NCBI GenBank assembly: GCA_029319145.1
Contig: CP119753.1
Coordinates: 1,674,001 to 1,738,000 of the forward strand
Length of the DNA: 64,000 nt
Reading direction: 5' to 3'
From: Microbacter sp. GSS18
GTDB lineage: Bacteria > Actinomycetota > Actinomycetes > Actinomycetales > Microbacteriaceae
In this document: positions 36,069 to 56,681 of the stretch, one piece after another
Position numbering within the stretch: the stretch's first letter is position 1
Layout: each line of letters begins with the position of its first letter
Notes under the pieces: generated by a model
What the model was told of the DNA's origin: nothing
Seen by the model: only the letters and a program-made list of their open reading frames with translations
The model's database searches: none
Position numbers and translations under genes: made by a program

Positions 36069-36343
36069 ACACTACCCTTGTTTTGCTTAACCCGCGTGGT
36101 GATTCACAGAAAGTGCCTGCGTGCATTCCGGTCTTTCCTTCTCCGGGAGGTGTTCGATGATCACTGGGTGGTCGCCGGGGCTCGGGATGTCGTCTGGGCG
36201 AGGTGTGTGGCGCTGTGCCGGTAGGCCGTGGATTGCGTGGTTCATGCTGCTGGCGCGAGTATCCGTCTGTTCCACCGGGTGGGAGCGTGACCCATAACGG
36301 TGGTGAGACCCTTTTCGGTATGCTGTGACGCGACGGGGGTGGA

Positions 36344-38148: not shown

Positions 38149-38370
38149 CTAGGCTCCCAGGACCCCGCCCAGATCCCCCGGGATGCGGCCGGCGAGCATG
38201 CTCGCGGTCACGATCAGAGCCGCCACGAGCATGGTGACGGTGACGGCTGCGCGGACCACGCCGGCAAGGCCGCGGCGAAACAGCGTCAGGACGAGGAACG
38301 GCAGGAACACGACGAGCGCGACGCCGAGCGCCCCGGTGGCGATCATCGCGCCGGCGGCAACGCCATCCAT
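38149..38370 (-). CDS. Small two-helix membrane protein (73 aa)
   Basis: Two hydrophobic segments (about residues 8-30 and 42-60) joined by a basic FRRG loop. Start ATG 38370 with GGAAGGA upstream; it ends one base after the convergent recombinase-like gene. It may belong to the transfer or maintenance genes of the mobile block. No family recognised. Confidence 0.6.
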   Translation of the reverse strand: MDGVAAGAMIATGALGVALVVFLPFLVLTLFRRGLAGVVRAAVTVTMLVAALIVTASMLAGRIPGDLGGVLGA

Positions 38371-38634
38371 CGCCTTCCTCCTTCCGTGGTCCTGTCGGCT
38401 GATCTCAGTGTGCTCCGGGGTCCGGACATCCCACCCTGTGACTGGTCTGCGGGTGTTCCTGCTCTCAGCGGACCCTGCGACCGGAGGGGTGCGCAGTGCC
38501 GACGGGCGGGGTGTGCGCGGACGGAGCGGAGCGACGGAGCACATGCCCCGCCCGCCGGAACGGAGCAGCCCGCAGGGCGCTACACTCCCCCGCCAGGAAC
38601 CCGCTCCCGCGCTCCCATCCGCGAGTGCGCCCGA
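38371..38634. other. Short gap without a recognised gene
   Basis: About 260 bases between two minus-strand genes of the mobile block; no coding or structure recognised. Confidence 0.4.
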
Positions 38635-38892
38635 TCAGGGGGTGGTGATGAGTGCGGTGATGTCGCGGGTGAAGGCGTGGCGGTGGCCGGTGGGGTCGGT
38701 GATGACTTCGCGGATCCTCTGCCGCATGGACTGCCGGTAGGCGTCGGGCAGGCCGCGGAGGGGTTCGAGGACCCAGTCAATGTCTTCGTCGATGGTGTAG
38801 CCCGGCTGGTCGGCGGACTTGTCGGGGTGGTAGCCGAGCGCGGCGATCGCGGCACGGTTCAGGACGTTTTCGGCGGTGTTGCGGTCGAGCAT
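38635..38892 (-). CDS. Hypothetical mobile-block protein (85 aa)
   Basis: Acidic/helical protein with IAALGYHPDKSADQPGY and LPDAYRQSMRQRIREVI. Two starts compete: ATG 38892 has a clear GAAAGGA site, while ATG 38943 overlaps the stop of the upstream Arg-rich gene (ATGA) and would add 17 residues. I chose the one with the ribosome site. Family unknown. Confidence 0.6.
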   Translation of the reverse strand: MLDRNTAENVLNRAAIAALGYHPDKSADQPGYTIDEDIDWVLEPLRGLPDAYRQSMRQRIREVITDPTGHRHAFTRDITALITTP

Positions 38893-38939
38893 GGTGGTGT
38901 CCTTTCGGGACGAGTCTTCCCCACCCGGACGGCGGGTGG

Positions 38940-39974
38940 TCATCGGGACAGGCCTCCGGTGGAGAACCCGGCGCCGGCACCGGCGCCGGGCCCGTGAGGC
39001 GCGGCCGGATCCGGGCGCGGGCCGCGGCGAGGCTGGGTGCGCAGGCGCTGATTGATCTGTTTCGCGATCTGATCCATCCGCTCCTCTTCGGCTTCCCGGG
39101 CGGCAGCGCGCGCGGCCTCGCGGCGGCAGCGTTCTGCGACCGCCGGGTTGTCGGCGGCGAACGAGGCGTTGCGGATGCGTTCACTCTCCTCGCGGAACGC
39201 CTCCAGCAGGTGCGGCGGGGTGGCGTCCTCTGCCATCACCCGCGCGATCAGCTCGGGGGTGGCGGGGCGTGCGAAGAACGCGTCGGCGGCGGTCTGGTTC
39301 TCCCCCCTGGCCGCGGTCGTGGTGCGGCGGATCCGCCAGGGCGGGAGACCGGCCTTCTTGCGGGCGCGATCGCGGGCGCGCCATTCCCGGTTGTACGCGA
39401 GGCGCTTCTCCGGGTCCTGCCGGTACTGCTCGCGGCGTCGGGCGGTGATCTCGTCCTTGTGGCGGTCGTAGTAGCGGCGCGCCTTCGCCTTCCCCGCCGT
39501 CGGGTCGTCGCGGTACCGGTCGCGGGCCTTCTGCTGCAGCCTGTCGCGGTTGCGGGCGTAGTAGTCGCGCTGCAGCTGGTTGCGGTGCCGGCGGAACCCG
39601 GCGGGGTCTTCCCGGTACCGGCGCGCCAGCCATGCCCTCGACCGCTGGCGGTGCTCTTCGGCGTGTTCCCGCGCGTACCGGCGGTCGTACTCGCGGCGCT
39701 TCTGGAGGGCCGCGGCGTGCTTGCGGGCGCGGTCTTTCCGGCGGCGGGAGGCAGCGACCTCGCGGCGGTTGATCCGCTCCCGGTTCGCGGCGCGGTACTT
39801 CTCCTTCGACGCGGCCACCTTCTCCGGATTCGCCTCCCGCCACCGCCGCCCGTACTCGCGCCGCTTCTCGGCATTCGCGTCCCGCCACCGCGCGTTGGAG
39901 GCCCGCGGCGTCCCCCCGGTGTCGTTCCCTCCGACGGGCTGCGAGGCGCCGGCGAGGGTGGTGTCCTCGGTCAT
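38940..39974 (-). CDS. Arg-rich repetitive protein of the mobile block (344 aa)
   Basis: From about residue 30 to 210 the protein is a run of basic helical repeats of the form RWREANPEK, KYRAANRER, RYREDPAGF, RYRDDPTAG, QYRQDPEKR. Each has an aromatic/Arg pair, a turn (NP, DP or AN) and a basic helix. The C-terminal 100 residues are helical (ELIARVMAEDATPPHLLEAF). Extreme Arg content suggests nucleic-acid binding. Start ATG 39974 overlaps the glutaredoxin-like stop. No known family assigned. Confidence 0.65.
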   Translation of the reverse strand: MTEDTTLAGASQPVGGNDTGGTPRASNARWRDANAEKRREYGRRWREANPEKVAASKEKYRAANRERINRREVAASRRRKDRARKHAAALQKRREYDRRYAREHAEEHRQRSRAWLARRYREDPAGFRRHRNQLQRDYYARNRDRLQQKARDRYRDDPTAGKAKARRYYDRHKDEITARRREQYRQDPEKRLAYNREWRARDRARKKAGLPPWRIRRTTTAARGENQTAADAFFARPATPELIARVMAEDATPPHLLEAFREESERIRNASFAADNPAVAERCRREAARAAAREAEEERMDQIAKQINQRLRTQPRRGPRPDPAAPHGPGAGAGAGFSTGGLSR

Positions 39975-40243
39975 GGCCGGCTCTCCTCCTCGTGGAGGCG
40001 GCCGATCAGCTGCGTCAGCAGGTCGGGGCGGAAACCCGCCCACGGGGTGCTGTCGCCGGTGGGGACCACGACCGGCACCCGGGTGTAGCCGAGCACGTCG
40101 ACGACGACCACGCGCAGGGCCCGATTGTCGGGATCGCTCAGATCGACCTCGCGGTACGGGATGCCGAGCCCGTCCAGCAGCGCCCGCGTCGCCCGGCACC
40201 GATCACACACCGGACCCGTCGTGTACAGCGTCACCGGGATCAC
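39971..40243 (-). CDS. Glutaredoxin/NrdH-like redox protein (90 aa)
   Basis: VTLYTTGPVCDRCRATRALL carries a CxxC redox pair at the usual position, followed by LGIPYREVDLSD, YTRVPVVV (cis-proline) and a WAGFRPDLL helix, the NrdH/glutaredoxin fold. Encoded in a coupled run with partition-like genes, overlapping neighbours on both sides, so it belongs to the mobile block rather than to a ribonucleotide reductase operon. Confidence 0.82.
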   Translation of the reverse strand: MIPVTLYTTGPVCDRCRATRALLDGLGIPYREVDLSDPDNRALRVVVVDVLGYTRVPVVVPTGDSTPWAGFRPDLLTQLIGRLHEEESRP

Positions 40244-41112
40244 CGCCCCACCCCCGCCACGCGCTGCCGGGCGGGGGCCGCGGCGGACGACCCGGGAACC
40301 GGACTCCGGAACTGCGGCACTCCCACACTCCGCGACTCCGGAACACCCGTACTCCCGCCGTCGCGGAGATCCGTCCTGCCAGACCCCGCCACTCCCGCGA
40401 TGCCCGAGTCTGCGGGATCCGACCTCGGCGAGGTCGTGACGCCGGGCGTTCCGGAGTCCGTGGCATCCGAAGTCCGGGAGTCCGCGGCATCCGACCTCGG
40501 GGAGTTCGCGACACCCGGTGTTTCGGAGTCGGCAACATCCGAAGTCCGGGAGTCCGCGGCATCCGGCGTCCCGACGTCCGCGACTCCCGAAGTCCGCGAG
40601 TGCGGAAGTCCGGGACTCGCCGACTGCCGGGGTTCGGTGGTCGGCTGCTCCGCCACTGAGTGAGTTCCTGAGTCCGCGACTCCCGCACTGCGTGAGGTCG
40701 AGACTTCCGCAGGCCGGGACTCCGGGGGTCCAGGGCTGTGCGACTGCGAGCCTTCCGGTGTTCGGGAGTCAGGACGTCCGGGAGTGTCGGATGCGGTGAG
40801 TGCCGTGGTCACGGAGTCACGGAGTGCGGTCTCGGTGGACCCGGCCAGCAGGTGCTGGTTCGCGAGCAGCACGTCGATCGCGACGCGGATGAGGGTGTTC
40901 TCGGTGATCCGTTCCGTCTTCACGGTCCGGCGGCGCATCAGTGCTCGTGCGAGCGTGCCGAGGGCCGCGTACTGGTCCTCCCGCACGCGCGCGTCCTTGC
41001 GTGTCAGCCGCGCGAACATCGGCCCGGGCCCCGAGCCTGGCGCGGGCGTCGTCTCGGCGGCGACCCTGTTGCGGGCATCGCCGAGGCGGCCGGCGAGGTC
41101 GATCTTCGCCAT
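40240..41112 (-). CDS. Putative partition partner of ParA with a repetitive tail (290 aa)
   Basis: Starts at ATG 41112, two bases after the parA stop. Residues 1-100 form a conserved-looking domain (RVREDQYAALGTLARALMRR, then ITENTLIRVAIDVLLANQHL), similar in style to small centromere-binding or plasmid ParB-like proteins. The remaining 170 residues are low-complexity Ser/Asp/Pro/Thr repeats (SRTSDVADSETPGV type). Role in partition is inferred from position only. Confidence 0.6.
   Translation of the reverse strand: MAKIDLAGRLGDARNRVAAETTPAPGSGPGPMFARLTRKDARVREDQYAALGTLARALMRRRTVKTERITENTLIRVAIDVLLANQHLLAGSTETALRDSVTTALTASDTPGRPDSRTPEGSQSHSPGPPESRPAEVSTSRSAGVADSGTHSVAEQPTTEPRQSASPGLPHSRTSGVADVGTPDAADSRTSDVADSETPGVANSPRSDAADSRTSDATDSGTPGVTTSPRSDPADSGIAGVAGSGRTDLRDGGSTGVPESRSVGVPQFRSPVPGSSAAAPARQRVAGVGR
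40464..40565. repeat. Imperfect internal repeats in the partition-partner gene
   Basis: A 30-base stretch at 40464-40493 recurs identically at 40536-40565, 72 bases apart. Shorter related units with GAGTCCGCG or CATCCGA extend from about 40300 to 40760. They encode the low-complexity tail. Confidence 0.75.
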
Positions 41113-41114
41113 GC

Positions 41115-41786
41115 TCACCACCTCCCGGCGAGCACCGGCACCCCGGCCGTGCTCATCTCGAACCCGACCTGGGTGACGTCGAAGATCGACCCCGCGGTGC
41201 GGCGCGTGTCGCGCAGATCCGTCACGAGCTGCCCCGCGATCGGGGCATCCGCGTGAGCCTTGTACTGCCGCAGGTACGCGTCGAACCTCGGCACCCCCAG
41301 GGTGGTGTCCAGCAGATGACGCCACTGCGGCAGCTGCAACGGGATGCGCGCGTCGATCCGGTTCAATAGCACCCGGTACGACACATCCCTCGGATCGATC
41401 AGTCGCGTGATCGTCCGCATCGTCGGCTCCACCGCCAGCGGCTCCGGGACCAGCGGCACGATCACCTCACCGGCCGCATCCAGCACCGTCTCCAGCGTCC
41501 GCGTGTCCTCCAGCGACCCGGGAGTGTCGACGAGCACGAAGTCGTAGTCGCCGCCCAGATCACGCAGCCGCGACAGCACCTGCGGCTGCTGGTTGCCGGC
41601 GAAGTCGAACGGGAGGTTGCCGCCCGCATTGTCGGCCCACCACACCGTCGACTGCTGCGGATCCACATCCACCACCAGCACCCGGAACCGGCGCGACAAC
41701 GCCGCGGCCAGCTGCATCGTGACCGTGGTCTTCCCAACCCCGCCCTTCTGATTCGCGACCGCGACGATCCTCATCGCGCCGCTCAT
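41115..41786 (-). CDS. parA: ParA family partition ATPase (223 aa)
   Basis: VANQKGGVGKTTVTMQLAAA is the deviant Walker A of ParA/MinD ATPases. VVDVDPQQSTVWWA and FVLVDTPG give the A' and B motifs. The size is that of small plasmid ParA proteins without an N-terminal HTH. Its start overlaps the AlpA-like gene by four bases. It should segregate the element together with the next gene's product. Confidence 0.92.
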   Translation of the reverse strand: MSGAMRIVAVANQKGGVGKTTVTMQLAAALSRRFRVLVVDVDPQQSTVWWADNAGGNLPFDFAGNQQPQVLSRLRDLGGDYDFVLVDTPGSLEDTRTLETVLDAAGEVIVPLVPEPLAVEPTMRTITRLIDPRDVSYRVLLNRIDARIPLQLPQWRHLLDTTLGVPRFDAYLRQYKAHADAPIAGQLVTDLRDTRRTAGSIFDVTQVGFEMSTAGVPVLAGRW

Positions 41787-42007
41787 CGGAGATCCCCCTC
41801 ACCGGACGAGTGACGAATCCACTCCTCCAGCTCGTCGATCGCGTACAGGATGACGCGACCGAGCTTGTAGTACGGCGGACCCTTCTTCTCGTACCGCCAC
41901 TGCGCCAGGGTCTTCTTCTTCAACCCCGGCAGCAGCGCCACCACCTCGTCAGGACTCAGGAAATCTTGGCTCAACCGGGAGGATGCCCGGTTCGTCACGG
42001 TCGTCAT
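41783..42007 (-). CDS. AlpA/excisionase-like DNA-binding protein (74 aa)
   Basis: DFLSPDEVVALLPGLKKKTL followed by AQWRYEKKGPPYYKLGRVIL and YAIDELEEWI is the HTH_17/MerR-like fold of excisionases and AlpA regulators. Start ATG 42007 preceded by GGAGAGG; an upstream in-frame ATG lies in the promoter. First gene of the operon with parA, and divergent from another HTH gene. It may regulate the block or act in excision. Confidence 0.82.
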   Translation of the reverse strand: MTTVTNRASSRLSQDFLSPDEVVALLPGLKKKTLAQWRYEKKGPPYYKLGRVILYAIDELEEWIRHSSGEGDLR

Positions 42008-43812: not shown

Positions 43813-46800
43813 TCAGACTCTCCGATCGTCCGCATACCGCGGAGCCATCGACTCCATCTGGTCCATGACGAGCTTGATCGCGTCGAGTTGCTTGTCCGGT
43901 GGGTACTTGTACTTCACCAGGAGTCGCTTGATCGATGACCGCAGCTTCGCGCGGACGTCGTCGCGCACGGTCCAGTCGGTGCGCACGTCGCGGCGCATGA
44001 CGGCGACGAGTTCCCGCGCGATCTGCGCGAGAACGTCCTCACCCTGCACGTCGATCGCGGATTCGTTGGTGGCGACGGCGTCGTAGAACGCGAGTTCGTC
44101 GCTGGAGAGCGGGGGCGTGAACGTCGCCCCTCGGTTGGCCTCGGCCGCGACATCCTTCGCCAACTCCACAAGCTCGGCGATGACCTCGGCGGAGGTGAGC
44201 TGCTGGTTCGTGTAGCGGTTCATGATCTCGGCGATCCGTTCCGAGAACGCGCGCTGGCGGACGAGGTTGCCGCGGGTCGCGGCCGCGCCGGCATCCGTCA
44301 GTGACTTGCGCAGCGCCTCGATCGCGAGGTGAGCGTTCGGCGCTGCCTGGGCCTTCGCGAGGAACTCGGGCCCGAGGTCGTCGAGAGCGAGTCGGGGCAG
44401 GCCGGCGGCGTCGTAGATGTCGACGACGTCTCCTGGTGCGATCGAGTCGGCCACGAGTGTTCCGAGCAGGCGCGAGATCTCCTCCGGGATCGGTTCGTCG
44501 CGCGACTGCCGCTCGGCGGCGTCGAACTTCGCCATCCACACGCGGACCTCTTCGTAGAAGGCGATCTCGTCGTGCAGTTCGGCGAGCCCTTCGCGTCCGG
44601 ATGCGAGCGCCCACGCACGCGCCAGCTGCCCGGTCGCGAGTCGATACTGGGCCGACAGCCGCTCCGAGCCGAGGTCCTCGGCGTTGAGCGGGTTCTGCGG
44701 GTCGCGCAGGTAGTTCGTCGCCATGGTCGCCGCGGTTCGCCATGCGCGCGAGCCGCCCTCGCGCGCGACGGCACGCCAGTCGCACTCGGCGAGCAGATCC
44801 CGGATCTGCGCCACCAGCTCGGTCGCGATCGCCACCGCCTCGTCGACGTCGCGTCCGATCGGCTTGTGCTCCTGATCCGAGACCGTGTACTCCGATAGTG
44901 CCTTGGCGAGGTTGTCGGCCAGCGGGGCGTATGCGACGAGCAGGCCGTCCTTCTTGCCGCGGAACGTGCGGTTCACGCGGGCGAGGGTCTGCATCAGCAA
45001 CGCACCCTTGAGTGGTCGGTCGAGGTAGAGAGTATGCAGCGGCGGGGCGTCGAACCCCGTGAGCATCATGTCCTTCACGATGACCAGTTCGAGTTCGTCC
45101 GAAGCATCCTTCAGGCGCGCCTTGATCGCCTTGTTCTCGGAGTCGCGCCGCACGTGGTCGCTCACCGGCGGCTGATCCGACGCAGACCCCGAGTACACGA
45201 CCTTGATGCGACCCGAGTCCAGGGCATCCGAGTGCCAGTGCGGTCGCAGCGCGACGATCGCGGTGTAGAGCCGTGCGCAGATCTCGCGCGTGCCGCCCAC
45301 GATGAGCGCCTTGCCGGGCGACTCGAGGAACGGCTTCATCCGCTCACGCCGCTCCTCCCAGTGCCGCACCAGGTCCTCGGCGAGCGTCTCAATGCGCTCC
45401 GGCGCCCCGTACACGGCGTTGACGACGGCAACGGATGCCTCGAGCCTCGCCCGCTCGGTGTCATCGAGCCCGAGCGTGTACTCGTCGGCGGCGCGGTCGA
45501 TGTCCTCTTCGCTCGCACCGTCGGCGAACGACACCTTGATGAGCCGCGGCTCGAAGTACACCGGGACCGTCGCCCCGTCATCCACAGCACGGGTGAGGTC
45601 GTAGATGTCGATGTAGTCGCCGAACACCGCACGGGTGTCGCGCTCGGCGAACGAGATCGGGGTGCCGGTGAACGCGATGAGCGTCGCGTTCGGCAACGCG
45701 TCCCGCAGGTGCCGGGCGTACCCGTCGAGGTCGTCGTAGTGGCTGCGGTGCGCTTCGTCGACGACGACGATCACGTTGCGCCGGTCGGTGAGGAGCGGAT
45801 GCTGCGTGCCCGACTGCTTCTCAGCATCCGTCAGCCCGAACTTCTGCAACGTCGTGAAGTAGATCCCGCCCGTGACCCGGTTGCTCAGCTCGTCACGCAG
45901 CTGCGCGCGCTCGCGCACCTGCACCGGCCTCTCGGCCAGCAGCAGGCTCTGATCGAACGTCTGGAACAGCTGCCCGTCGAGCTCGGTGCGGTCGGTGACG
46001 ACAATCACGGTCGGATTCTTGAGTTTCGGATGCCGCGACACGAGGTTCGCGTACAGCTCCATCTCCATCGACTTGCCCGACCCTTGCGTGTGCCACACCA
46101 CGCCGGCCTTGCCGTTCGTCTCGACCGCCTGCACCGTCGAGCCGACCGCCTTCGTCACCGCGAAGTACTGGTGCGGCTTCGCGATGCGCTTGGTCAGCCC
46201 GTCGGAGTTCCCGTCGAACGCCGTGAAGCTGCGCACGAGCTGCAGGAACCGCTCCTGGTTGAACAGGCCATTGAGCGCGTCATCGAGCGGCTCGACCGAC
46301 ATCCCGTTCTCGAGCCGCGGCTGATTCAGCGGTGCACCGTCGTCGTCGACGTTCCAGGGCGCGAAGTGATTCAGCGGGGTGAATGGGGTGCCGTACTTGG
46401 CTGCGATCCCATCGCTGGCGAGGGTCAGCACACAGAACCGGAACACCATCGGGAACTCGCGCAGATACGTCTGCAACTGCCGATGCGCTTCAGCAACGCC
46501 GGCCGATGCCGAGCCGGCACGCTTCAGCTCGACGACGACCAGAGGCATCCCGTTGACGAACAGCACGACGTCGAACCGGCGATGCAGGTCGCCCTGGCGC
46601 AGCGTCAGCTGGTTAACGGCGAGCCAATCGTTCTCGTGCGGCTGCGTTCCGAGCAGGCGCAGCCGCGGGTTCTGCTCAACCCCGTCGGAGTCGATGTAGC
46701 TCAGCGGATACCCACCGACCAGGTACTGATGGACGCGGTGGTTCTCGGTGATCGCATCCTGCGAGGTCGGCGAAGCGATCTGAGCGACGACCTGCTGCAG

Positions 46801-46995
46801 ATACTCGCCCGGGACGCCAGGGTTCAGGCGACGCAGCGCGTCAAGGAGCCGGGGACGAATGAGCAGGTCATCCCACGTGTCGCGCTGTCCACTCCCGGGT
46901 GCGATGTCCTCGCCCCTGGACGGCTGCCAGCCGAGCGGCTCGGCGAGCGTTTCGAGAGCATCATGCTCCCAGTCGGCCTCGGACAGCCCTGTCAT
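43813..46995 (-). CDS. hsdR: Type I restriction enzyme R subunit (1060 aa)
   Basis: The nuclease motif FDVVLFVNGMPLVVVELKRA (D...ExK), the SF2 helicase motifs HTQGSGKSMEM, VTDRTEL, VVVDEAHRS, FTGTPI and LVIVKDMMLTGFDAPPL, and the late QTLARVNRTF are all present in order. The length of about 1060 is normal for HsdR. It translocates and cuts DNA lacking the methyl mark set by HsdM-HsdS. It is the last gene of the operon, 8 bases after the GTPase gene, separated from hsdS by three non-RM genes. Confidence 0.95.
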   Translation of the reverse strand: MTGLSEADWEHDALETLAEPLGWQPSRGEDIAPGSGQRDTWDDLLIRPRLLDALRRLNPGVPGEYLQQVVAQIASPTSQDAITENHRVHQYLVGGYPLSYIDSDGVEQNPRLRLLGTQPHENDWLAVNQLTLRQGDLHRRFDVVLFVNGMPLVVVELKRAGSASAGVAEAHRQLQTYLREFPMVFRFCVLTLASDGIAAKYGTPFTPLNHFAPWNVDDDGAPLNQPRLENGMSVEPLDDALNGLFNQERFLQLVRSFTAFDGNSDGLTKRIAKPHQYFAVTKAVGSTVQAVETNGKAGVVWHTQGSGKSMEMELYANLVSRHPKLKNPTVIVVTDRTELDGQLFQTFDQSLLLAERPVQVRERAQLRDELSNRVTGGIYFTTLQKFGLTDAEKQSGTQHPLLTDRRNVIVVVDEAHRSHYDDLDGYARHLRDALPNATLIAFTGTPISFAERDTRAVFGDYIDIYDLTRAVDDGATVPVYFEPRLIKVSFADGASEEDIDRAADEYTLGLDDTERARLEASVAVVNAVYGAPERIETLAEDLVRHWEERRERMKPFLESPGKALIVGGTREICARLYTAIVALRPHWHSDALDSGRIKVVYSGSASDQPPVSDHVRRDSENKAIKARLKDASDELELVIVKDMMLTGFDAPPLHTLYLDRPLKGALLMQTLARVNRTFRGKKDGLLVAYAPLADNLAKALSEYTVSDQEHKPIGRDVDEAVAIATELVAQIRDLLAECDWRAVAREGGSRAWRTAATMATNYLRDPQNPLNAEDLGSERLSAQYRLATGQLARAWALASGREGLAELHDEIAFYEEVRVWMAKFDAAERQSRDEPIPEEISRLLGTLVADSIAPGDVVDIYDAAGLPRLALDDLGPEFLAKAQAAPNAHLAIEALRKSLTDAGAAATRGNLVRQRAFSERIAEIMNRYTNQQLTSAEVIAELVELAKDVAAEANRGATFTPPLSSDELAFYDAVATNESAIDVQGEDVLAQIARELVAVMRRDVRTDWTVRDDVRAKLRSSIKRLLVKYKYPPDKQLDAIKLVMDQMESMAPRYADDRRV

Positions 46996-47003
46996 GGGTC
47001 AGC

Positions 47004-48245
47004 TCAACCCTTCGCGATCTTCTGCTCTGCCATCTTGCGGATGACGTCGAGGAACCCAGGGACGAAGTCACCCCACGAATCGTTCACTGCATCGAGGTCG
47101 AGCTTGCCCGTGTGCACCTGCTCGCACAGGCGCGTCCAACCCTCACCCGTCGCGCCGGTGAGCGCTGCCGCAACGCCGGCGTTGATGACGCTCCCTGCGC
47201 CGGGAATCAGCTTGAGCAAACTGCTGGCGAGCGCCCTGCCCGCGAGTTGCACGCCGACCTGCGCGAGGGCGCCGGCCGAGAGCATGCTCTTGATCTCGAG
47301 GTCGTAGATGATCGCGATGCGACCCATCATTCCGAGTTGGATCGGCGCCAGAATTGCGGCATCTGCGACGGGAACGGGAACCGCGGCTGCTCCGGCAGCT
47401 GCAGCCGAAGCTGCTCCGACAACCGTGCGAGCCATTTCGCGCTTCCAGGGGAGGTTGAGTCGCTGGGCGATGCGAAACGCATCCTTCTCGTCTTCGGGCG
47501 CGAGCGAGAGAGTCTCGGTGACGAGCTCACCGAGCCCATATCCCGAGTCCTTTCCGTGCTTGTCGCGGGCCGCCGTCAGGATCACTCGCTGGTACGGGAT
47601 GTCGATCGGCTGGTCGGTCTCGTCGACAGGGTTCTCGAGCCAGTCGACGAACTCCTGGACCCCCTTCGGGATCGAGCGCTTGCCGGGGATGACGCTGATT
47701 CCGGTGTCGACCTTGGTCAGGACCAGGATGACGGGTAGACCCTCGGCGTCGAGTTCGCGGATCATCTCGATGTCCGCCGGGGTGAGCCGGTCGTCGTTGG
47801 ACTTCACGCAATACCAGACGACCGCGATCTGTCGATCAGCGGGGTGTTCTGAGATCGTCTTGAGGTGAGCCCTCAGCTGCTCACGCGGCGCAAGCTTCGA
47901 CCCGATCTCGAATCCCTCCACGTCCCAGATACCAAGGGAGTCGTCGTTGAAGTACTGGACGCCGCGGGTCACTGGCAGGCCTTTGCCGACCTTCGCCCAG
48001 TCACGCCCGAACACGGCGTTGACGAGGGACGACTTTCCCACGCCCGAACCACCGATGACTGCGAGGTTGAACCGGCCGTAGCGGGACTTGGCCTCGGAGC
48101 TCGCCTCGAGGAATGGGCGCTCGTCGAACTCCGGCGCGGCTGCGGTGGACTCGGGGATGTCCTTCGCGGATTCGCCTTCGGCTCGAGCTTCGGCCTCGTT
48201 TGACACCATGGACTCGTCCTCCTGCAGCTGCTCGTCGGCACTCAT
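47004..48245 (-). CDS. YcjF/dynamin-like GTPase embedded in the RM operon (413 aa)
   Basis: All G-protein motifs are present: P-loop GGSGVGKSS (65-73), a switch Thr in PVTRG (93), DVEG (108-111, G3) and TKVD (177-180, G4). The C-terminal part has hydrophobic helices with PVADAAILAPIQLGMMGRIA and LIPGAGSVINAGVAAALTGA, the DUF697/YcjF-like membrane-associating domain. It overlaps the DUF4230 gene by 4 bases and precedes hsdR by 8 bases. Not a known type I RM subunit. A defence or membrane-sensing role is inferred from position. Confidence 0.88.
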   Translation of the reverse strand: MSADEQLQEDESMVSNEAEARAEGESAKDIPESTAAAPEFDERPFLEASSEAKSRYGRFNLAVIGGSGVGKSSLVNAVFGRDWAKVGKGLPVTRGVQYFNDDSLGIWDVEGFEIGSKLAPREQLRAHLKTISEHPADRQIAVVWYCVKSNDDRLTPADIEMIRELDAEGLPVILVLTKVDTGISVIPGKRSIPKGVQEFVDWLENPVDETDQPIDIPYQRVILTAARDKHGKDSGYGLGELVTETLSLAPEDEKDAFRIAQRLNLPWKREMARTVVGAASAAAAGAAAVPVPVADAAILAPIQLGMMGRIAIIYDLEIKSMLSAGALAQVGVQLAGRALASSLLKLIPGAGSVINAGVAAALTGATGEGWTRLCEQVHTGKLDLDAVNDSWGDFVPGFLDVIRKMAEQKIAKG

Positions 48246-48910
48246 ACTGCGAACTCGAACTCAAGCGTGATCGTGGGGTCGATCGCCTCCACGATGCGGG
48301 TGTAGAATACCTTCGCCTGCTCCTCGAGCACCGGCCGGAATCCCTTGATGTGCTCGTCTACGGCCGCCGCAGACAGTAGCTCCTCGAACACCGCCGTCGT
48401 GTCGATCTCGGGGGTCGTCCAGCTGAGAATGCCGTTATCCTCGCTGGCCACGCTCAGGTCGGGGTTCTCATAACCCAGGTAGATGAACTTCGGAATGGTC
48501 ACGAGGTACGAGTTGTCACCCGTCTGGGTGATTTCGACGTCCTTGCCCTCGATGCCGAACTTCGCGTCGTAGTCATAGCGAACGAGCAACGACCGCTCGG
48601 TGCCGGGCAGAGTGAAGAGACTCCAATCGCCGATCGCGAGCTTCAGGCCATCGCCGCGCTCCTCCTGCACGTCGGTCACGCCGGCGGTGACGAGGATCAC
48701 CTGCTCTTCGCCCTTGAGCGACCGGATGACCTGAACGTCACGCGACTCCGCGGCGCCGAGGAACTTCCCCACCGTGAGCCCCGCGAAGGCAGCCCCGCCG
48801 ATGAGCGCGAAGACGAATAGCCACAGCAGGAGCTTCGCCCACAGCGGGGTCTTCTTCACCGGCTTGGGAGCGGACGTGGTGGGCGGCGCAGGCGTGGCTG
48901 TCGTGGTCAT
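48242..48910 (-). CDS. DUF4230 membrane-anchored protein (222 aa)
   Basis: One membrane helix (KLLLWLFVFALIGGAAFAGL, about residues 25-45), then an outward beta-rich domain with VIRSLKGEEQVILVTAGVTD and LLVRYDYDAKFGI, the DUF4230 pattern. Function unknown in the family. Start ATG 48910. Its stop overlaps the GTPase start (ATGA), so the two are made together and probably act together at the membrane. Confidence 0.82.
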   Translation of the reverse strand: MTTTATPAPPTTSAPKPVKKTPLWAKLLLWLFVFALIGGAAFAGLTVGKFLGAAESRDVQVIRSLKGEEQVILVTAGVTDVQEERGDGLKLAIGDWSLFTLPGTERSLLVRYDYDAKFGIEGKDVEITQTGDNSYLVTIPKFIYLGYENPDLSVASEDNGILSWTTPEIDTTAVFEELLSAAAVDEHIKGFRPVLEEQAKVFYTRIVEAIDPTITLEFEFAV

Positions 48911-48983
48911 TTGGCGAATCTCCCCAGGTGGTTGGTGCAGTGCACTCGTATATGAAATCTAGAGTCTCAAGCAGAAGTGCATG

Positions 48984-49952
48984 TCATTCGCTTGCCGCCG
49001 GGTCGCCTCCGACATCACCATCGGAGTCCGCAGCCACGTACGCCGGCCGCGCGGAGAACTCATCCAACGTCGCGGGATCGCCGGTCGCAACGTAGTCCAC
49101 AGCGAGCCCGACACGGCGCGGAAGCTCGACTACTTCAGCGAGCCGATAGCTTCCTCCTGTGTATTGGAAGTCGGGGTCAATCTCACAGTCCGGAGTGACG
49201 TCATCGTGGTCGAGCGAGACCACCTCACGGTTGACCACCAACGACGCGACACGAACGGCTCGCTGGCCAGCGCAGAGTACTGGGGCGCCTGTCTCGACCG
49301 ACTCAAGAAGCTCCTCTCCGTCTTGGACAAGACCCTCGACCACAGTTGAGAAAGCCGCGATCTTCCCTACGAGTGCGACCTGGACAGGAATCATCTGCCG
49401 GTGCTTGTCGCCGTTGTTCAGTTGTTGGAGCCCATGCAGCCCGTGGTACGGGCTCGCCCACGGTTGAACGGCCTCGTAGCGCGCAATTGCCCAAGAGGGA
49501 AGACCGGCATGAACCTTCGCCCACTCTCGCCATTGTCTTCCTGGCTCCGTGATCGGGAAGTAGGGGCGTCGAGGAAGCTCTCCGACGGAGTACCGCTCGA
49601 TCATCAGCGTGTTCAAGTTGTCGAGGGCGCTTCGACAGTCGTGAAGGATACGGCCGACGCGCAGTGCCCAGTCCTGATGGGGGAAGGCGGAGCCTGCAGT
49701 AAGGGTGAAGTCGACGATATCTGGTGATCCGCTACGCAGGGAGACTTCCACCTTGACGTCGGAGCGGTGGCGCCAATCGTGGATCGCCTGCCGCAAGTCG
49801 AGCGCATCTCTCCGAGCTGCCCGAACTCTGAATCGGATGTCCTCGAGGTCCGCGAGGCCAAGTCCGTTGGAGTCCTTCCGTCTGAACGACGAGCCCGCCC
49901 CGAGGTCCTCCAGCGCCTCATGATTCGAGTTTGACTGGTGCTGCTGGGTCAA
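48984..49952 (-). CDS. Unknown helical protein embedded in the RM operon (322 aa)
   Basis: TTG start at 49952 is supported by a GGAGGT site seven bases upstream and by a 4-base overlap with hsdS. Conserved-looking motifs include HDCRSALDNLNTLMIER (about residue 105) and LQQLNNGDKHRQMIPV (about residue 185); the HD...LDN and DKHR pairs recur in actinobacterial hypothetical proteins of unknown role. The latter half is beta-rich. No catalytic family assigned. Confidence 0.78.
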   Translation of the reverse strand: MTQQHQSNSNHEALEDLGAGSSFRRKDSNGLGLADLEDIRFRVRAARRDALDLRQAIHDWRHRSDVKVEVSLRSGSPDIVDFTLTAGSAFPHQDWALRVGRILHDCRSALDNLNTLMIERYSVGELPRRPYFPITEPGRQWREWAKVHAGLPSWAIARYEAVQPWASPYHGLHGLQQLNNGDKHRQMIPVQVALVGKIAAFSTVVEGLVQDGEELLESVETGAPVLCAGQRAVRVASLVVNREVVSLDHDDVTPDCEIDPDFQYTGGSYRLAEVVELPRRVGLAVDYVATGDPATLDEFSARPAYVAADSDGDVGGDPAASE

Positions 49953-51157
49953 CTGTTCACCTCCGACGCGATGCGATGCGCCTCGCGCACGCGGATCCTG
50001 CCAGACATCAGCTGCGGGAGGAGCGCATCCCGGGTTGCGGCCAGGGCGCGGTTCTCCCGGGCCTGCGAAGCGACAAGCTCGCGGAGAGGGGCTGCCTGAG
50101 CCTCAAAGGAGGCGAGCCCCTCAGCCGGAATGTCGGGAACCGGTGCGTCGAGGAACCGGTCCGCGCGAACCGCAGGGTAGGCGCTTCCCTCGGCAACGTT
50201 CTCCAGGTAGGCGGCGAACTCAGGGCGCTTCGTTGCCTCGTAGAGGAAGGCAAATCCGACGTCGCGTGGCGACAGAATCGCGAGGCCGGTCGAAGCAACG
50301 AGCATTGGGTCGTCCTCAAGGTTCAGGGCGTGGGACCGCCGGTTGGGCCGGACGGTCGACCACATCGTGTCGCCCAGGGACAGTCCGCGCCGGGCCCTTC
50401 CCGGAGCATCCGCCCATTCACTGCGCTCGGGATAGTCAAAGGAGCCCACCGTGACCGACGCGATGTCGACGTATCGCAGGCTCCCGTCTGCGATTGGCTT
50501 GACTGAGCGCTTATTGACGTCCGCGATCGAGCCGAGCTTCGTTGTCCCGTTGCCGCTCGCCAGTTCATCGAGGAGACCCGCGAGGTACGAATCGATGGTT
50601 GCAGCGAGGGCAGTGTTGGCGGCGATCTTGTCGTCGAGGGCGCCCAGCACCTCGGCGATCGCCTGCTGCGCGGGAAGTGCCGGGAATCGGATCGGCAAGG
50701 AACGCAGCTGGCCGAGATTGAAGCCGGGAACAGAGCTACCGATCGCCTGGCCGCGAACAAGATCAACCATCCACGGCTGTGAGAGGTAGTAGTACAGGAA
50801 CGTGGGATCGACCTGTTGCGGGTCAGGACGTAGCCGCATCTGCTTGTTGGAAACGAGGAATCGATCATAGGCCTCGCGCCCGTCGAGCAGGCCAATTTGA
50901 CCGATCGTTCCCCAGCAGGTGAACACGAGGTCTCCCGCGCGTGCAACAGCACGCGGAAACTGCTCGACGATCGACTCAGGCAGAAAGACGAGATCCGCAG
51001 TGTCGATCCGCTTGCCGATATCGTCGCTGAGATTCGATCCGCGCAGCATCGGCACCCCATCGTTCACGAAGTGCTTTGATGACACGGCCGATCCAAAAGG
51101 GCCGGTGGCGGTCTCCGCCGCTATGTCACCAAGTGTGCTGGCGCTCCACGGGATCAT
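49949..51157 (-). CDS. hsdS: Type I RM specificity subunit (402 aa)
   Basis: Two target-recognition domains (about residues 1-155 and 190-360), each ending in a helical spacer: LPAQQAIAEVLGALDDKIAA and SFEAQAAPLRELVASQARE. TVRPNRRSHALN and VPGFNLGQLRSLPI are typical HsdS strands. The protein chooses the DNA site for both methylation and restriction. It overlaps hsdM and the next gene by four bases each. The recognition sequence cannot be read from the protein by eye. Confidence 0.93.
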   Translation of the reverse strand: MIPWSASTLGDIAAETATGPFGSAVSSKHFVNDGVPMLRGSNLSDDIGKRIDTADLVFLPESIVEQFPRAVARAGDLVFTCWGTIGQIGLLDGREAYDRFLVSNKQMRLRPDPQQVDPTFLYYYLSQPWMVDLVRGQAIGSSVPGFNLGQLRSLPIRFPALPAQQAIAEVLGALDDKIAANTALAATIDSYLAGLLDELASGNGTTKLGSIADVNKRSVKPIADGSLRYVDIASVTVGSFDYPERSEWADAPGRARRGLSLGDTMWSTVRPNRRSHALNLEDDPMLVASTGLAILSPRDVGFAFLYEATKRPEFAAYLENVAEGSAYPAVRADRFLDAPVPDIPAEGLASFEAQAAPLRELVASQARENRALAATRDALLPQLMSGRIRVREAHRIASEVNS

Positions 51158-52758
51158 GAGACTCTCGCGAGCTGGTTGCGAACGACATCGGCTAGGCGTG
51201 CCGACTCGGACAACTGCGCCTCGAGGTCGGCCCGCAACCGCGCGAGCTTCTCTTCGATCGGCTCGCCGTCGTCCTCCGCTTCGGCGGCGCCGACGTACCG
51301 CCCAGGCGTCAGCGCGTAGTCCGCAGCCTTGATCTCGGCGTGCATCGCCGAGTAGCAGAACCCCGGAACATCGGCGTACCCGTCGGACGCAGCATCCGAC
51401 TCAACTCCTCGCCACGCGTGGAACGTGCCCGCGATCTTCGCGATGTCCTCATCGCTCAGCGCGCGCTCGGCGCGGTCAACCATGTGCCCGAGTCCGCGGG
51501 CGTCGATGAACAGCACCTCGCCCGCACGCTTCCCCTTGTCCTTCGCGAAGAACCACACGCACACCGGGATGCCGGTCGAGCGGAACAGCTGGGTCGGCAG
51601 GGCGACCATGCACGACACGAGGTCGGCTTCCACGATCTCGGCGCGGATCTGCCCCTCCCCGCCGGAGTTCGATGACATCGAGCCGTTGGCCATGACGACG
51701 CCGGCCTGCCCGCCGGGGGCGAGCTTGGAGAGGATGTGCTGGATCCAGGCGTAGTTCGCGTTGCCGGTGGGCGGGACGCCGAATCGCCAGCGCGGGTCGT
51801 CTTCGGTGCGGGCCCAGTCCTTGATGTTGAAGGGCGGGTTGGCCATGACGAAGTCGGCCTGCAGGTCGGGGTGAAGGTCGCGTGCGAAGGTGTCGCCCCA
51901 GCGCGGTCCGAGGTTGCCCGAGAGTCCGTGGATGGCGAGGTTCATCTTTGCCATGCGCCAGGTGCGCTCGTTGAGTTCCTGCCCGTACACCGAGATGTCG
52001 CTGCCCTCGCCGTGGTGGGCGTCGATGAACTTCTCGGCCTGGACGAACATTCCGCCCGATCCGCAGCAGGGGTCGTAGACGCGCCCGTGGGTAGGCTGCA
52101 GCAGTTCGACGAGCACCCGCACGACGCCGGCGGGCGTGTAGAACTCGCCGCCCCGCTTGCCTTCGGCGGCGGCGAACTTCTCGAGGAAGTACTCGTACAC
52201 CTCACCGAGCAGATCCCGCGCGCGGCGTCCGTCCGATCCGCCCTGCCCCTGGGCGGCGAACCGTGCCGAGTTGAGCAGGTCCATGAGTTCGCCAAGGCGC
52301 CGCTGGTCGACGTTGTCGCGGTTGAAGATCCGCGGGAGCGTGCCCGAGAGCTGCGGGTTGGCCTGCATGACGGCATCCATCGCCTCGTCGATCAGCAGGC
52401 CGATCGACTTCTCGACGCCGTCGACCTGCGCGCCCTTCGCATTCTCGGCGAGAAAGCCCCACCGCGCGTTCGCGGGCACCCAGAACACTCCGCGGCCGGT
52501 GTACTCGTCGGTGTCGTCGATGAGGTCGGCGATTTGGTCGTCGTCGTACCCGTCGGCGGTGAGCTCGGCGCGGATGCCCGCGCGGCGCTCGTCGAAGGCA
52601 TCCGACACGTACTTGAGGAAGACGAGCCCGAGGATGACGTCCTTGTACTGCGAGGCGTCCATCGATCCGCGCAGCTTGTCGGCGGCCTTCCAGAGCGTGT
52701 CCTTCAGCTCCTTCATGGTCGACGGCGCCTGCGGGGCGGCTTTCGGTGTGCGGGGCAT
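51154..52758 (-). CDS. hsdM: Type I RM DNA adenine methyltransferase (534 aa)
   Basis: Motif I DPCCGSGGMFVQ (SAM binding) and motif IV NPPFNIKDW (catalytic, N6-adenine) are intact. The N-terminal HsdM domain (MKELKDTLWKAADKLRGSMD, VFLKYVSDAFDE) and the C-terminal ALPTQLFRSTGIPVCVWFF are also typical. Length is normal. Start ATG 52758 with GGAAG upstream, nine bases after the HsdM-like gene. Confidence 0.95.
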   Translation of the reverse strand: MPRTPKAAPQAPSTMKELKDTLWKAADKLRGSMDASQYKDVILGLVFLKYVSDAFDERRAGIRAELTADGYDDDQIADLIDDTDEYTGRGVFWVPANARWGFLAENAKGAQVDGVEKSIGLLIDEAMDAVMQANPQLSGTLPRIFNRDNVDQRRLGELMDLLNSARFAAQGQGGSDGRRARDLLGEVYEYFLEKFAAAEGKRGGEFYTPAGVVRVLVELLQPTHGRVYDPCCGSGGMFVQAEKFIDAHHGEGSDISVYGQELNERTWRMAKMNLAIHGLSGNLGPRWGDTFARDLHPDLQADFVMANPPFNIKDWARTEDDPRWRFGVPPTGNANYAWIQHILSKLAPGGQAGVVMANGSMSSNSGGEGQIRAEIVEADLVSCMVALPTQLFRSTGIPVCVWFFAKDKGKRAGEVLFIDARGLGHMVDRAERALSDEDIAKIAGTFHAWRGVESDAASDGYADVPGFCYSAMHAEIKAADYALTPGRYVGAAEAEDDGEPIEEKLARLRADLEAQLSESARLADVVRNQLARVS

Positions 52759-52767
52759 GGAGCTTCC

Positions 52768-54780
52768 TTACTGCGGGTCGGATGCCGCGGGCGCGGCGTC
52801 CATGTCGGTCAGAGTGACGGCGCCGGCGGCCACAGCGGCTGTCAGCGTATCGATGTAGTGGTCGAGATTCGCGACGCGGCTCTCGAGTTCGGCACGAGCC
52901 GCGGCGAGGTCAGCGAGTGCGCGGCGGAGCGGGGCGATGGATGCCGGGGCGACGCGGCGCATCATCCACCGCTTCCACGCGCCCGGCCCGGCGGACTGGG
53001 TCGGGATGTCGGCGGCGACCAGCTCGGGGACGAGTCCGCCGGGGTCGGACGCGGTGATCCGCAGCACACGGGCGGGGTAGGCGACGATCTTGGATCCGTC
53101 GTGGTCGACCCAGGCGGCGGGTGTGGGGCTGGTGCGGAAGACGATGTCGCCGGGGCGGGTGAGCTGCGCGGACGGATGCTGGTGCGCGAAGGTCATCGGG
53201 TCGATGCGGCGGTTGCCGATCCGGGTCGGCGTGCTGAGGTCTTCGGCGGTGACGACGCCGAGGCCGGTCGTTCCGGCGTCCTCGACGGCGAGTCTCGTGC
53301 CGGGGATGATCCGTGCGTGTCCGTTGCCGATGAGGTCCCCGAGCGGGGCTGGCGGGACCGCTGTCGATGGGTCACCGATTGCCCTGATGCGCTCTGGGAG
53401 GTCGATGGCGGCGGTGACCGCCGCGGCGTCCAGGTTCGCGGCGAGTGCCGCGGTGTGCGAGGGCGACGTCGTGTGGGGGGTGCGTGGGGCGAGGAGTGCG
53501 CCGGAGCGTGCGAGGAACGATGACGTGCGCACGAGGCGCGCGAACCGGAAGGTTCGCGCCAATACGTCGGCGCGGCTTCCCATGCCGGCGAGGACGTCGC
53601 TGACGATGTCCGCACGCGTGGCGGGAGTCAGTTCGCCATCGATGAGATCGGCGACAGCCGTGAACCTCTCACCACGAGGGACGTCACCGGTCGGTGGGCC
53701 GAGCACCCACAGTGCGAGCGGTTCGCGCGTGGCGGCGGCCACGAGACCGTGCGGCAAGCGGACCGCGGCACGAAGGCGACCGGACCGCAGCACGTCGTCG
53801 CGGGCCGCTCGGGCGGGCGCGGGCAGCGCGTCAATGAGGGCGCGCGCTGGGCCCACCACGACGGCGACGTCCTTGTCGCGAAGCGACAACGCCACATCGT
53901 CGGCGTCCGCCAGCATCCGCTCGACGTTGTCGCCGGGCGTCGCGGGCACGCGCGCGAGGTAGACGGTCGCCGTGCTGTCGACATCGTCCTCGATCCAGAT
54001 GTCGGCGACCTGGAGGTGCCGACGGACGCTCCGCTCGCGGGGAGATGCCGCGACCGAGAGCGCGATGTCATCGCTGATGTCGCTCGCGGTGCGGAGCGCG
54101 GTCAGTTCGTCGATTCCGCGGTCGATCACCACCCGATCGACGCCATCCCGCTGGGCGAGCGCCGTCGTGACTTCAAGGATGAGGTCGAGCGCAGTGCCGG
54201 CGAGCGGAGCGGCCGAGCCATCCGCTGCAGTCGTAGCTGTGTGACGAGCGCGCGAGACCTCAAGCGCCTGCGCAGGCGAGTAGGCCGCATCGATGAGCTG
54301 ATCGGTGAACGGCGCCCAGTCTGCTCCGCGGTCGAGGTGTCGGGACACCTCACTGCGAAGGAACGCGTCAGACGGGTCCACTTCGCCCGCAGCCTGACGC
54401 AGAGCGTCGGGCGTCTCGTCGGTGAGTCCGCCAACGAGCGCGGCCAGGACGATGAGCGCGTTGAGCTCGGCGACGTGCGAGGCGTTCGCCCAGTCGAGAT
54501 CGGCCGGCGCGGCGGCTGCCGCGGCATCCGCCACCGCCTCGGGATTGTTGCCATGGCCGGTCCGCACGAGCCACTCGGCCACCGCGCCGGCATCGAAGAG
54601 TGGCGACCCCGACTTGCGCGCGATCGGCGCGGGAAACGCATCATCCCCTGTCGCAAACCGTGAACGCCACATCGACGCGACCGGGCGCCGCACTCTCGCG
54701 AGCTCGGCCACATCCGACAGCGAGAGCCGAAGAGGCACAGGGCCCTCGGCTGCTCGCTGGGCGGAAGTCGCGGTGGTCAC
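52768..54780 (-). CDS. HTH plus HsdM/HsdS-like protein without methylase motifs (670 aa)
   Basis: Three parts can be seen. Residues about 18-75 (LSLSDVAELARVRRPVASMW, then GSPLFDAGAVAEWLVRTG) look like a MerR/AlpA-type DNA-binding domain. Around 335-360, AAVRLPHGLVAAATREPLAL, then WVLG resembles the late HsdM segment ALPxxLFxxTxxPxCxWxL. Residues 460-655 resemble an HsdS target domain with a closing coiled coil (ALADLAAARAELESRVANL). Neither the DPxxGxG nor the NPPF motif is present. GTG start 54780. First gene of the operon; likely a regulator or an accessory specificity factor. Confidence 0.72.
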   Translation of the reverse strand: MTTATSAQRAAEGPVPLRLSLSDVAELARVRRPVASMWRSRFATGDDAFPAPIARKSGSPLFDAGAVAEWLVRTGHGNNPEAVADAAAAAAPADLDWANASHVAELNALIVLAALVGGLTDETPDALRQAAGEVDPSDAFLRSEVSRHLDRGADWAPFTDQLIDAAYSPAQALEVSRARHTATTAADGSAAPLAGTALDLILEVTTALAQRDGVDRVVIDRGIDELTALRTASDISDDIALSVAASPRERSVRRHLQVADIWIEDDVDSTATVYLARVPATPGDNVERMLADADDVALSLRDKDVAVVVGPARALIDALPAPARAARDDVLRSGRLRAAVRLPHGLVAAATREPLALWVLGPPTGDVPRGERFTAVADLIDGELTPATRADIVSDVLAGMGSRADVLARTFRFARLVRTSSFLARSGALLAPRTPHTTSPSHTAALAANLDAAAVTAAIDLPERIRAIGDPSTAVPPAPLGDLIGNGHARIIPGTRLAVEDAGTTGLGVVTAEDLSTPTRIGNRRIDPMTFAHQHPSAQLTRPGDIVFRTSPTPAAWVDHDGSKIVAYPARVLRITASDPGGLVPELVAADIPTQSAGPGAWKRWMMRRVAPASIAPLRRALADLAAARAELESRVANLDHYIDTLTAAVAAGAVTLTDMDAAPAASDPQ

Positions 54781-55646: not shown

Positions 55647-56681
55647 GTGAGCAATCCCTCAACCCCGGCACCGCCGGCCATGCCCGCAGCACCCGTGCCC
55701 GGCGCGCAGTTCCCGCAGCCGCCCGCGAAGTCGTTCATCGCGACCTGGCTGTTCGCCTGGCTGCTCGGCGTCTTCGGCGTCGACCGGTTCTACCTCGGCA
55801 AGGTCGGCACCGGCATCCTCAAGCTCGTCACCTTCGGCGGCCTCGGCATCTGGATCCTCGTCGACCTGATCATGGTGCTCGTCGGCGCCACCCGCGACAA
55901 GCTCGGCCGCCCCCTCGAGGGCTACGACAAGCACCGCGTCATCGCGTGGATCGTCACCGGCGTCGTGATCATCCTCGGCATCGCGGTGGGCGCAGTCAGC
56001 GGCGGAAGCGGTGGGAACGACGCCGCCGACGTACCCGCCGTGGAACAGAGCGACGCCACCACCGATGAATCGAAGCAGCCCGCTGAGCCGACAGAGGAGG
56101 CACCCGCCGAGGAACCCGCGGTCACGGCGGCGAGCTGGGCGAACGAGGAGTGGGGCGAGTTCGCGCCCGTCGAGCAGTCCGGCACGGGTGACACCCTCAT
56201 CACCCTCCCCGATGGAGCGACCGGCGGGATCGTGACCGCGACCCACAACGGCGAGCGTAACTTCGCGATCTCGGTCCTCGACGCCTCGAACGAGACGACC
56301 GGCGAACTCCTCGTCAACACCATCGGCTCCTACTCGGGCACGACCGCGTGGGGCATCAACGCCTTCGGCGAGGGCGCGCGCCTGCAGGTGACCGCCGACG
56401 GGGCATGGACGATCACCATCAGCCCGATGGGGTCGGCCCCGACCGCCGCAGAGTCGGGAACCGGCGACGCCGTGTTCCTCTACGACGGAGGCGCCGCGGC
56501 CCTGACCGCCACCCATGACGGCGAGCGCAACTTCGCGATCCTCGAAGAGACCTCGGAAGCGTTCAACATGGGGCTCCTGGTGAACGAGATCGGCACCTAC
56601 TCGGGCACCGTCCCACTCTCGGCCGGACCGTCGGTCGTCACCGTGACCGCCGATGGCAACTGGACGCTCGTCATCGAGTGA
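55647..56681 (+). CDS. TM2-domain protein with two C-terminal beta modules (344 aa)
   Basis: The TM2 pair is clear: [20 protein letters not shown], then [21 protein letters not shown] third membrane helix ([20 protein letters not shown]) and an acidic Pro/Glu linker lead to two related outward modules. Each runs GTGDxxxxL...TATHxGERNFAI...LLVNxIGxYSGT, so they arose by duplication. Start GTG 55647 with a perfect AAAGGAG site. Function of TM2 proteins in bacteria is unknown; an envelope role is likely. Confidence 0.88.

Follow-up and report, generated by a model that had tools for sequence, protein, structure and literature searches.

A slot for exchangeable cargo in a type I restriction-modification operon of Microbacteriaceae, and a candidate membrane-acting GTPase that recurs in it

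Why would the operon of a type I restriction-modification (RM) enzyme carry three further genes between hsdS and hsdR, and do these genes belong together? The question is raised by Microbacter sp. GSS18, where a GTPase, a DUF4230-type membrane protein and a protein called here U322 occupy this position on a stretch of 64,000 nucleotides, which is referred to below as the window. The features concerned, in the order of the operon and followed by the interval itself, are:

52768..54780, minus strand: HsdM-like gene, the first of the operon, 670 amino acids (weak profile similarity; motif scan)
51154..52758, minus strand: hsdM, N6-adenine methyltransferase subunit (Pfam N6_Mtase 371.8 bits and HsdM_N; NPPF at residues 307-310)
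49949..51157, minus strand: hsdS, specificity subunit (Methylase_S 49.8 bits; PADLOC Specificity_I)
48984..49952, minus strand: U322, 322 amino acids, TTG start (no family match; relatives outside RM; alignment)
48242..48910, minus strand: DUF4230-type protein with one predicted N-terminal transmembrane helix, residues 27-45 (homology; Pfam by transitivity; hydropathy and charge)
47004..48245, minus strand: P-loop GTPase with a DUF697 C-terminal domain, the core cargo (Pfam; motifs; recurrence in the slot)
43813..46995, minus strand: hsdR, restriction and translocation subunit (TIGR00348 468.4 bits; VELK, Walker A and DEAH motifs)
46996..49948, minus strand: variable cargo slot, the hsdS-hsdR interval (content varies among 17 loci of the lineage)

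The seven open reading frames (ORFs) run on the minus strand from 54780 to 43813 in a program-made list, with overlaps of four bases at HsdM/HsdS, HsdS/U322 and DUF4230/GTPase and gaps of 9 (HsdM-like/HsdM), 73 (U322/DUF4230) and 8 bases (GTPase/HsdR). This layout is in every point the one claimed by a preliminary description of the locus, and a separate gene calling returned the same seven genes, with the HsdM-like start placed later. HsdR, HsdM and HsdS all score above the Pfam cut-off, and a motif scan finds the motor/nuclease and methylase motifs (VELK, GSGKS and DEAH in HsdR, DPCCGSG and NPPF in HsdM), which together identify a type I RM operon; the embedding of the three genes in it, as first described, is borne out.

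To see what relatives hold at this position, 398 genomes of Microbacteriaceae were searched with the window HsdR, which gave matches at E <= 1e-100 in 29 genomes and at 32 places, the closest named HsdR being that of Microbacterium sp. 70-16 (90% identical). Genes were called at all 30 further places (L040-L069), beside the window and L036 (genome G072). Taking as one lineage the HsdR proteins of at least 60% identity, 17 intervals are readable (window, L036, L040-L052, L066 and, from a separate search, L070); L053, L054 and L067 were left out as cut contigs or fragments, and L049 was retained although neither hsdS nor hsdM is recognised there.

The hsdS-hsdR interval of this lineage is a slot with exchangeable cargo. 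The GTPase is found in it at 6 of the 17 loci, hence the hsdS-GTPase-hsdR arrangement is present in five genomes besides that of the window (L036, L040, L042, L043 and L070), and the DUF4230 gene at three (window, L036 and L070). A 5'-nucleotidase occupies it in L043, L044 and L066 (the L066 copy is 67% identical to that of L044), Fic in L043 and a YhcG nuclease in L050, while L041 holds an AAA_16 ATPase with a 411-residue protein and L070 additionally a 168-residue protein and two antisense genes. The interval is empty in six loci (L045-L048, L051 and L052; in L047 and L048 hsdS is only partly called, and the space suffices for hsdS alone) and disrupted, with small genes, in L049. Families were assigned for six cargo proteins (two each in L041 and L043, one each in L044 and L050), and three kinds of cargo match defence models of PADLOC: YhcG (PDC-S02), the 5'-nucleotidase (PDC-S08) and Fic (SoFic). 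In a second lineage, with HsdR about 40% identical, L060-L062 carry in the slot a protein of about 247 residues, 58-76% identical to the L061 copy, which is a Hypoth_Ymh protein with a weak match to Aga_HEPN. At L055 HsdM, a piece of HsdS and HsdR are present.

Our preferred reading, to which we give a probability of about 0.5, is that the GTPase, joined by the DUF4230 protein in half of the cases, may be an optional, membrane-acting second layer of defence that rides in the RM operon. Its recurrence inside a defence operon, at 6 of the 17 loci and in 6 of the 7 members of the HsdR subclade described below, argues for a defence cargo, as do the PADLOC matches of the other cargo. That the two proteins are partners is suggested by their being neighbours at 6 of 16 DUF4230 loci, also outside RM. 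Counted in favour as well are the window flanks, with a relaxase, ParA, a resolvase and a GajA/OLD-like ATPase, plasmid DUF4230 genes that stand beside a helix-turn-helix (HTH)-dynamin GTPase or after hsdR-hsdM-hsdS, and, as given below, the suggested topology of DUF4230 proteins (N-terminus in, C-terminus out) and the divergence of two GTPases outside intact RM operons.

Concerning the GTPase itself, Pfam MMR_HSR1 scores 39.1 bits and DUF697 30.7 (cut-off 27.7), and the nucleotide-binding motifs are intact (G1, 65-72, GGSGVGKS; G3, 108-111, DVEG; G4, 177-180, TKVD), so that it is a DUF697-GTPase; hydropathy peaks at 275-293, 296-314 and 344-362. It shares this domain with the YcjX/YcjF-type DUF697 proteins and differs from them in that one of its subfamilies is linked to RM. 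Dynamin_N, the mark of the dynamin superfamily and Leo, stays below its cut-off (21.3 vs 27 bits), and among solved structures the protein is closest in sequence to EngA/Der and EngB rather than to dynamins. Pfam finds no McrB or DUF262 domain in the GTPase, as a McrBC- or GmrSD-type system would have, and Pfam, PADLOC and NCBIfam find no PrrC-type anticodon nuclease domain in U322, the DUF4230 protein or the GTPase, none of which matches a PDC or HEC candidate model of PADLOC. EcsC was tried as a relative of the C-terminal domain and found unconvincing (hhalign over 22 columns, P 0.008, 5% probability).

At the Pfam gathering score the DUF4230 protein gives no direct match, nor does PADLOC yield one; its label holds because a homologue on the Lactococcus plasmid pIL6 (L021), 31% identical to it over 205 residues, passes the Pfam model (28.6 vs 27 bits); with the plasmid relatives the window protein aligns at E 1e-17. 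It differs from Pfam DUF4230 (PF14014) proteins, with which it is homologous via that of pIL6, in the lack of a direct match and in being paired with a GTPase. No significant match was found among solved structures, and the name is very rare in the literature, with only 3 records among the 5.39 million papers searched. The N-terminal side of the helix is the more positively charged in 17 of 19 relatives (the other two, with short called starts, show no clear helix), from which the domain is predicted to lie outside the cytoplasm.

Among the 398 genomes DUF4230 matches occur in 17, and 16 ORFs in 15 genomes remain once G308 and G385 are left out, where the match is short and covers only part of the protein inside a long ORF. 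At six of these 16 loci the GTPase adjoins: in an RM operon in the window and L036, by an RM remnant in L028, and without RM in L025, L030 and L031 (divergent), that is, four times outside an intact RM operon. The GTPase with a membrane-anchored DUF4230 partner, as preliminarily described, thus recurs, the anchor being a prediction from sequence. Plasmids gave 12 DUF4230 matches, and 10 neighbourhoods were inspected. In pIL6 the gene follows hsdR-hsdM-hsdS and in pLLE01E hsdS; on plasmids of Enterococcus gallinarum and E. faecalis an insertion sequence separates it from an AlwI RM pair; on the Lactococcus plasmid pSD96_06 (L156:347-3377) a gene for an HTH-dynamin fusion GTPase comes after it; and on four other Lactococcus plasmids and one of Paenarthrobacter no RM neighbour appears in the stretch shown. 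Neighbours of DUF4230 with the string VSDGDG were tried as EcsC proteins and do not align to EcsC. The window genome has a second DUF4230 gene, which in the stretch L039:6776-10241 lies near an FRG-domain gene and a gene resembling P-loop GTPases, whose product is hydrophobic in an N-terminal stretch and scores below the cut-off for MMR_HSR1.

Genes between hsdS and hsdR are of a known kind. PrrC embedded in the EcoprrI type I operon is a precedent (PMC3874165), DarTG2 lies between hsdS and hsdR on an island of enteropathogenic Escherichia coli and an AAA ATPase pair is reported at the same position (both PMC12255303), and TgvAB is embedded in a type I RM operon of the Vibrio cholerae island VPI-2 (PMC11411939). 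Like the window cargo these genes are not part of the RM enzyme and yet sit within a type I operon, DarTG2 at the very same position. Their products are nucleases, restriction enzymes or, for DarTG2, a toxin and its antitoxin, whereas in the window the slot holds a GTPase accompanied by a single-pass partner that is predicted to face outward. Payne et al. (2024) reportedly have further defence genes embedded in such operons among their PDC candidates, and in this these resemble the window cargo as well. Cargo of the GTPase/DUF4230 type in an RM operon was not found in the literature searched, nor as a PADLOC 2.0 model apart from a weak LeoBC match. For function the nearest analogy is DynA, which delays phage lysis (PMC8844932). 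In DynA and LeoABC, as in the window GTPase, the C-terminal part is hydrophobic and a role at the membrane is presumed; the window GTPase differs from them in the Dynamin_N score and in the solved relatives given above.

With PrrC, DarTG2 and TgvAB as analogies of position and DynA as that of function, the second-layer reading could work as follows. RM would be the first layer and the GTPase the second, and a physical complex of the two would not be required. Before infection the GTPase would be cytoplasmic and idle; the trigger may be a membrane disturbed by infection, or a phage that evades the type I enzyme. The DUF4230 protein would anchor the GTPase or signal to it, the hydrophobic segments of the GTPase together with DUF4230 would recruit it to the inner membrane, and there it would assemble in a GTP-dependent manner. 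The membrane might then be held together and lysis delayed, as with DynA, or be disabled in an abortive response.

The history of the GTPase bears on a first alternative, that it is a dedicated controller of the type I enzyme which gates the production, assembly or placement of HsdR, such that restriction is restrained when the operon is new or host DNA loses methylation. In an HsdR tree of 18 rows the window, L036, L040, L041, L042, L043 and L070 form a clade with 100/100 support. Six of these seven keep the GTPase although HsdS identity falls as low as 29% (pairwise 29-71%, as compared with 80-92% for HsdR and 83-91% for HsdM), it lies directly upstream of hsdR in four of the six loci (spacing 8, 10, 10 and -4 bases), and a GTPase tree of 19 rows does not reject either of the two HsdR subgroups as a group (approximately unbiased (AU) test, p 0.30 and 0.44), all of which counts for a controller. 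However, the same tree rejects a single clade of RM-linked GTPases (AU p 0.008), with solo GTPases nested among them; there is no correlation between the identities of HsdR and those of the GTPase, the latter 63-78% among the six slot copies (r 0.13, a value reached in 200 of 720 permutations); the gene is absent from the slot of L041 and of all 10 readable loci outside the subclade; a Fic gene (L043) or two antisense genes (L070) separate it from hsdR; and GTPases exist without RM. We consider a controller unlikely. The pattern is consistent with the gene having been captured once in the ancestor of the subclade and replaced in L041, with copies escaping elsewhere, repeated capture being a possible alternative history; escape is favoured because two of the seven close GTPases of the family sample that lie outside an intact slot adjoin hsdR remnants.

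Close GTPases, these two included, number 16: L070-L073 and 12 from the family sample, where the subfamily is patchy with 12 of 398 genomes. Of the 16, six lie in an intact slot, two by a remnant and eight without a trace of RM. In G084 (L028, 8162-7992) an N-terminal stretch of hsdR lies downstream of the DUF4230-GTPase pair, and in G296 (L109, 10241-10297) 19 C-terminal HsdR residues follow a broken GTPase. Short HsdR-like matches lie near two of the eight RM-free copies (E 0.14 and 0.31), and the contig of L071, one of the eight, stops 258 bases past the gene. RM neighbours were sought with hidden Markov models and BLAST from the Hsd proteins of this lineage, for which reason very different RM types may be missed, and linkage is a lower bound because several contigs are short. 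Between G084 and G096, both outside intact RM operons, nonsynonymous divergence of the GTPase is 0.099 and synonymous divergence, close to saturation, 1.525. This fits purifying selection and a role independent of HsdR, although some of the divergence may be older than the loss of RM.

Several observations weigh against the second-layer reading. No RM trace is seen in the examined stretch at G106, G096, G351, G102, G377, L071, L072 and L073, and DUF4230 is missing from three of the six RM-linked GTPases. Distant GTPases (37-43% identity) have a recognised RM gene at 0 of 15 family loci and 0 of 24 class loci within the fetched stretches (in class loci L126 and L130 gene calling missed the GTPase itself); in a third set of 24 loci an hsdS fragment is found near the GTPase only at L081 (Ruminococcus albus), giving 1 of 63 overall. 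Several class loci have common gene neighbours and therefore a housekeeping look, and the DUF4230 gene of Streptococcus mutans stands beside ribosome-biogenesis genes (PMC13041782), a setting that speaks for a general role in the cell. In PADLOC the match to LeoBC is weak and confined to the G domain (34.7 bits; LeoA 17.0, mad3 11.6). Pattern scans of viral contigs found no relative of the GTPase or of DUF4230, and phage records gave for the GTPase one partial G-domain match and for DUF4230 none.

A second alternative is that the GTPase and DUF4230 serve general envelope maintenance and hitch-hike on a mobile element, the RM slot being merely a tolerated site of insertion. The broad spread of the distant family at ordinary sites of the chromosome, the many RM-free settings of DUF4230 and the mobile-element flanks of the operon agree with it, but the close subfamily is patchy and half of it (8 of 16) lies in an intact slot or by an hsdR remnant, presence in 6 of 7 subclade members is above what we expect of a neutral passenger, and the other cargo of the slot is of defence type; we regard it as doubtful. 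It is quite improbable that the GTPase, with DUF4230 as its anchor, is a fourth subunit which would place or gate HsdR at the inner membrane for GTP-controlled restriction at the site of phage injection.

U322 has no match in Pfam, PADLOC or NCBIfam, none on plasmids and no significant one among solved structures. Relatives occur in 12 of the 398 genomes, the window included, and five align at 24-34% identity; of the 11 others eight neighbourhoods were fetched, the gene being recovered in five, and none of the eight has RM matches. One relative (L119) has a YhcG gene nearby, which shares 47% identity with the YhcG gene of L050. A phage origin of the three cargo genes was considered and rejected, since the viral contig scans contain no relative of any of them; phage records were not searched for U322. 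As a system component U322 was rejected too, given its presence in the slot at the window only (1 of 17) and relatives elsewhere without RM, and it is probably a passenger.

An obligate system of U322, DUF4230 and GTPase with RM, close or overlapping as the genes are in the window, is contradicted by this distribution, since DUF4230 accompanies only three of six GTPases and pairs exist without RM, and it is most improbable; the restricted form, DUF4230 with the GTPase, survives. The joint three-gene system of the preliminary description therefore fails, and the co-occurrence it looked for holds for the GTPase in its slot and not for the three-gene set, which among the 17 loci is seen at the window alone. 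Occurrence away from RM, which it had named as evidence against a joint system, is partly found, in DUF4230-GTPase pairs as well as solo GTPases.

The label of the HsdM-like gene denotes weak profile similarity only. Its product has no family match in Pfam, PADLOC or NCBIfam and no NPP[FY] methylase motif in the motif scan; with hhalign it gives P=0.0018 against HsdS and P=0.036 against HsdM, compared with 0.33 for an unrelated control, the weak alignments joining its C-terminal part to the HsdS recognition domain and its middle to HsdM. It is perhaps a non-catalytic M-S fusion or a regulator. Upstream lies one further recurrent gene:

55695..56681, plus strand: TM2-domain membrane protein (TM2 64.2 bits, with the longer ORF start)

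At 7 of the 17 loci (window, L044, L046-L048, L050 and L070) a TM2 gene of opposite orientation lies within about 1 kb upstream of the HsdM-like gene, separated from it by at most one gene; such neighbours may be undercounted because they were found by a sequence motif. A TM2 gene is also seen at L030, close to the GTPase-DUF4230 pair that has no RM there. On the other side, 32916-42007 holds a TrwC relaxase-helicase, a Zeta toxin, a resolvase, ParA and an HTH gene, and the RM operon seems to lie in an integrated mobile element; at 58992-60695 (minus strand) there is an AAA ATPase related to the defence proteins GajA, AriA and OLD. Beyond hsdR in two relatives, an EcsC-family gene with a PADLOC PDC-S29 match (L051:18015-19034, plus strand) overlaps the end of hsdR by four bases, and in G072 (L036:8208-10313, plus strand) the gene immediately after hsdR matches PADLOC models for Orf5, HEC-06 and type IV restriction.

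If the second-layer reading is right, type I RM operons would carry, beyond nucleases and toxins, membrane-acting GTPases as a second line, and a single operon would combine DNA restriction with protection at the level of the membrane. It would also give DUF4230 its first function.

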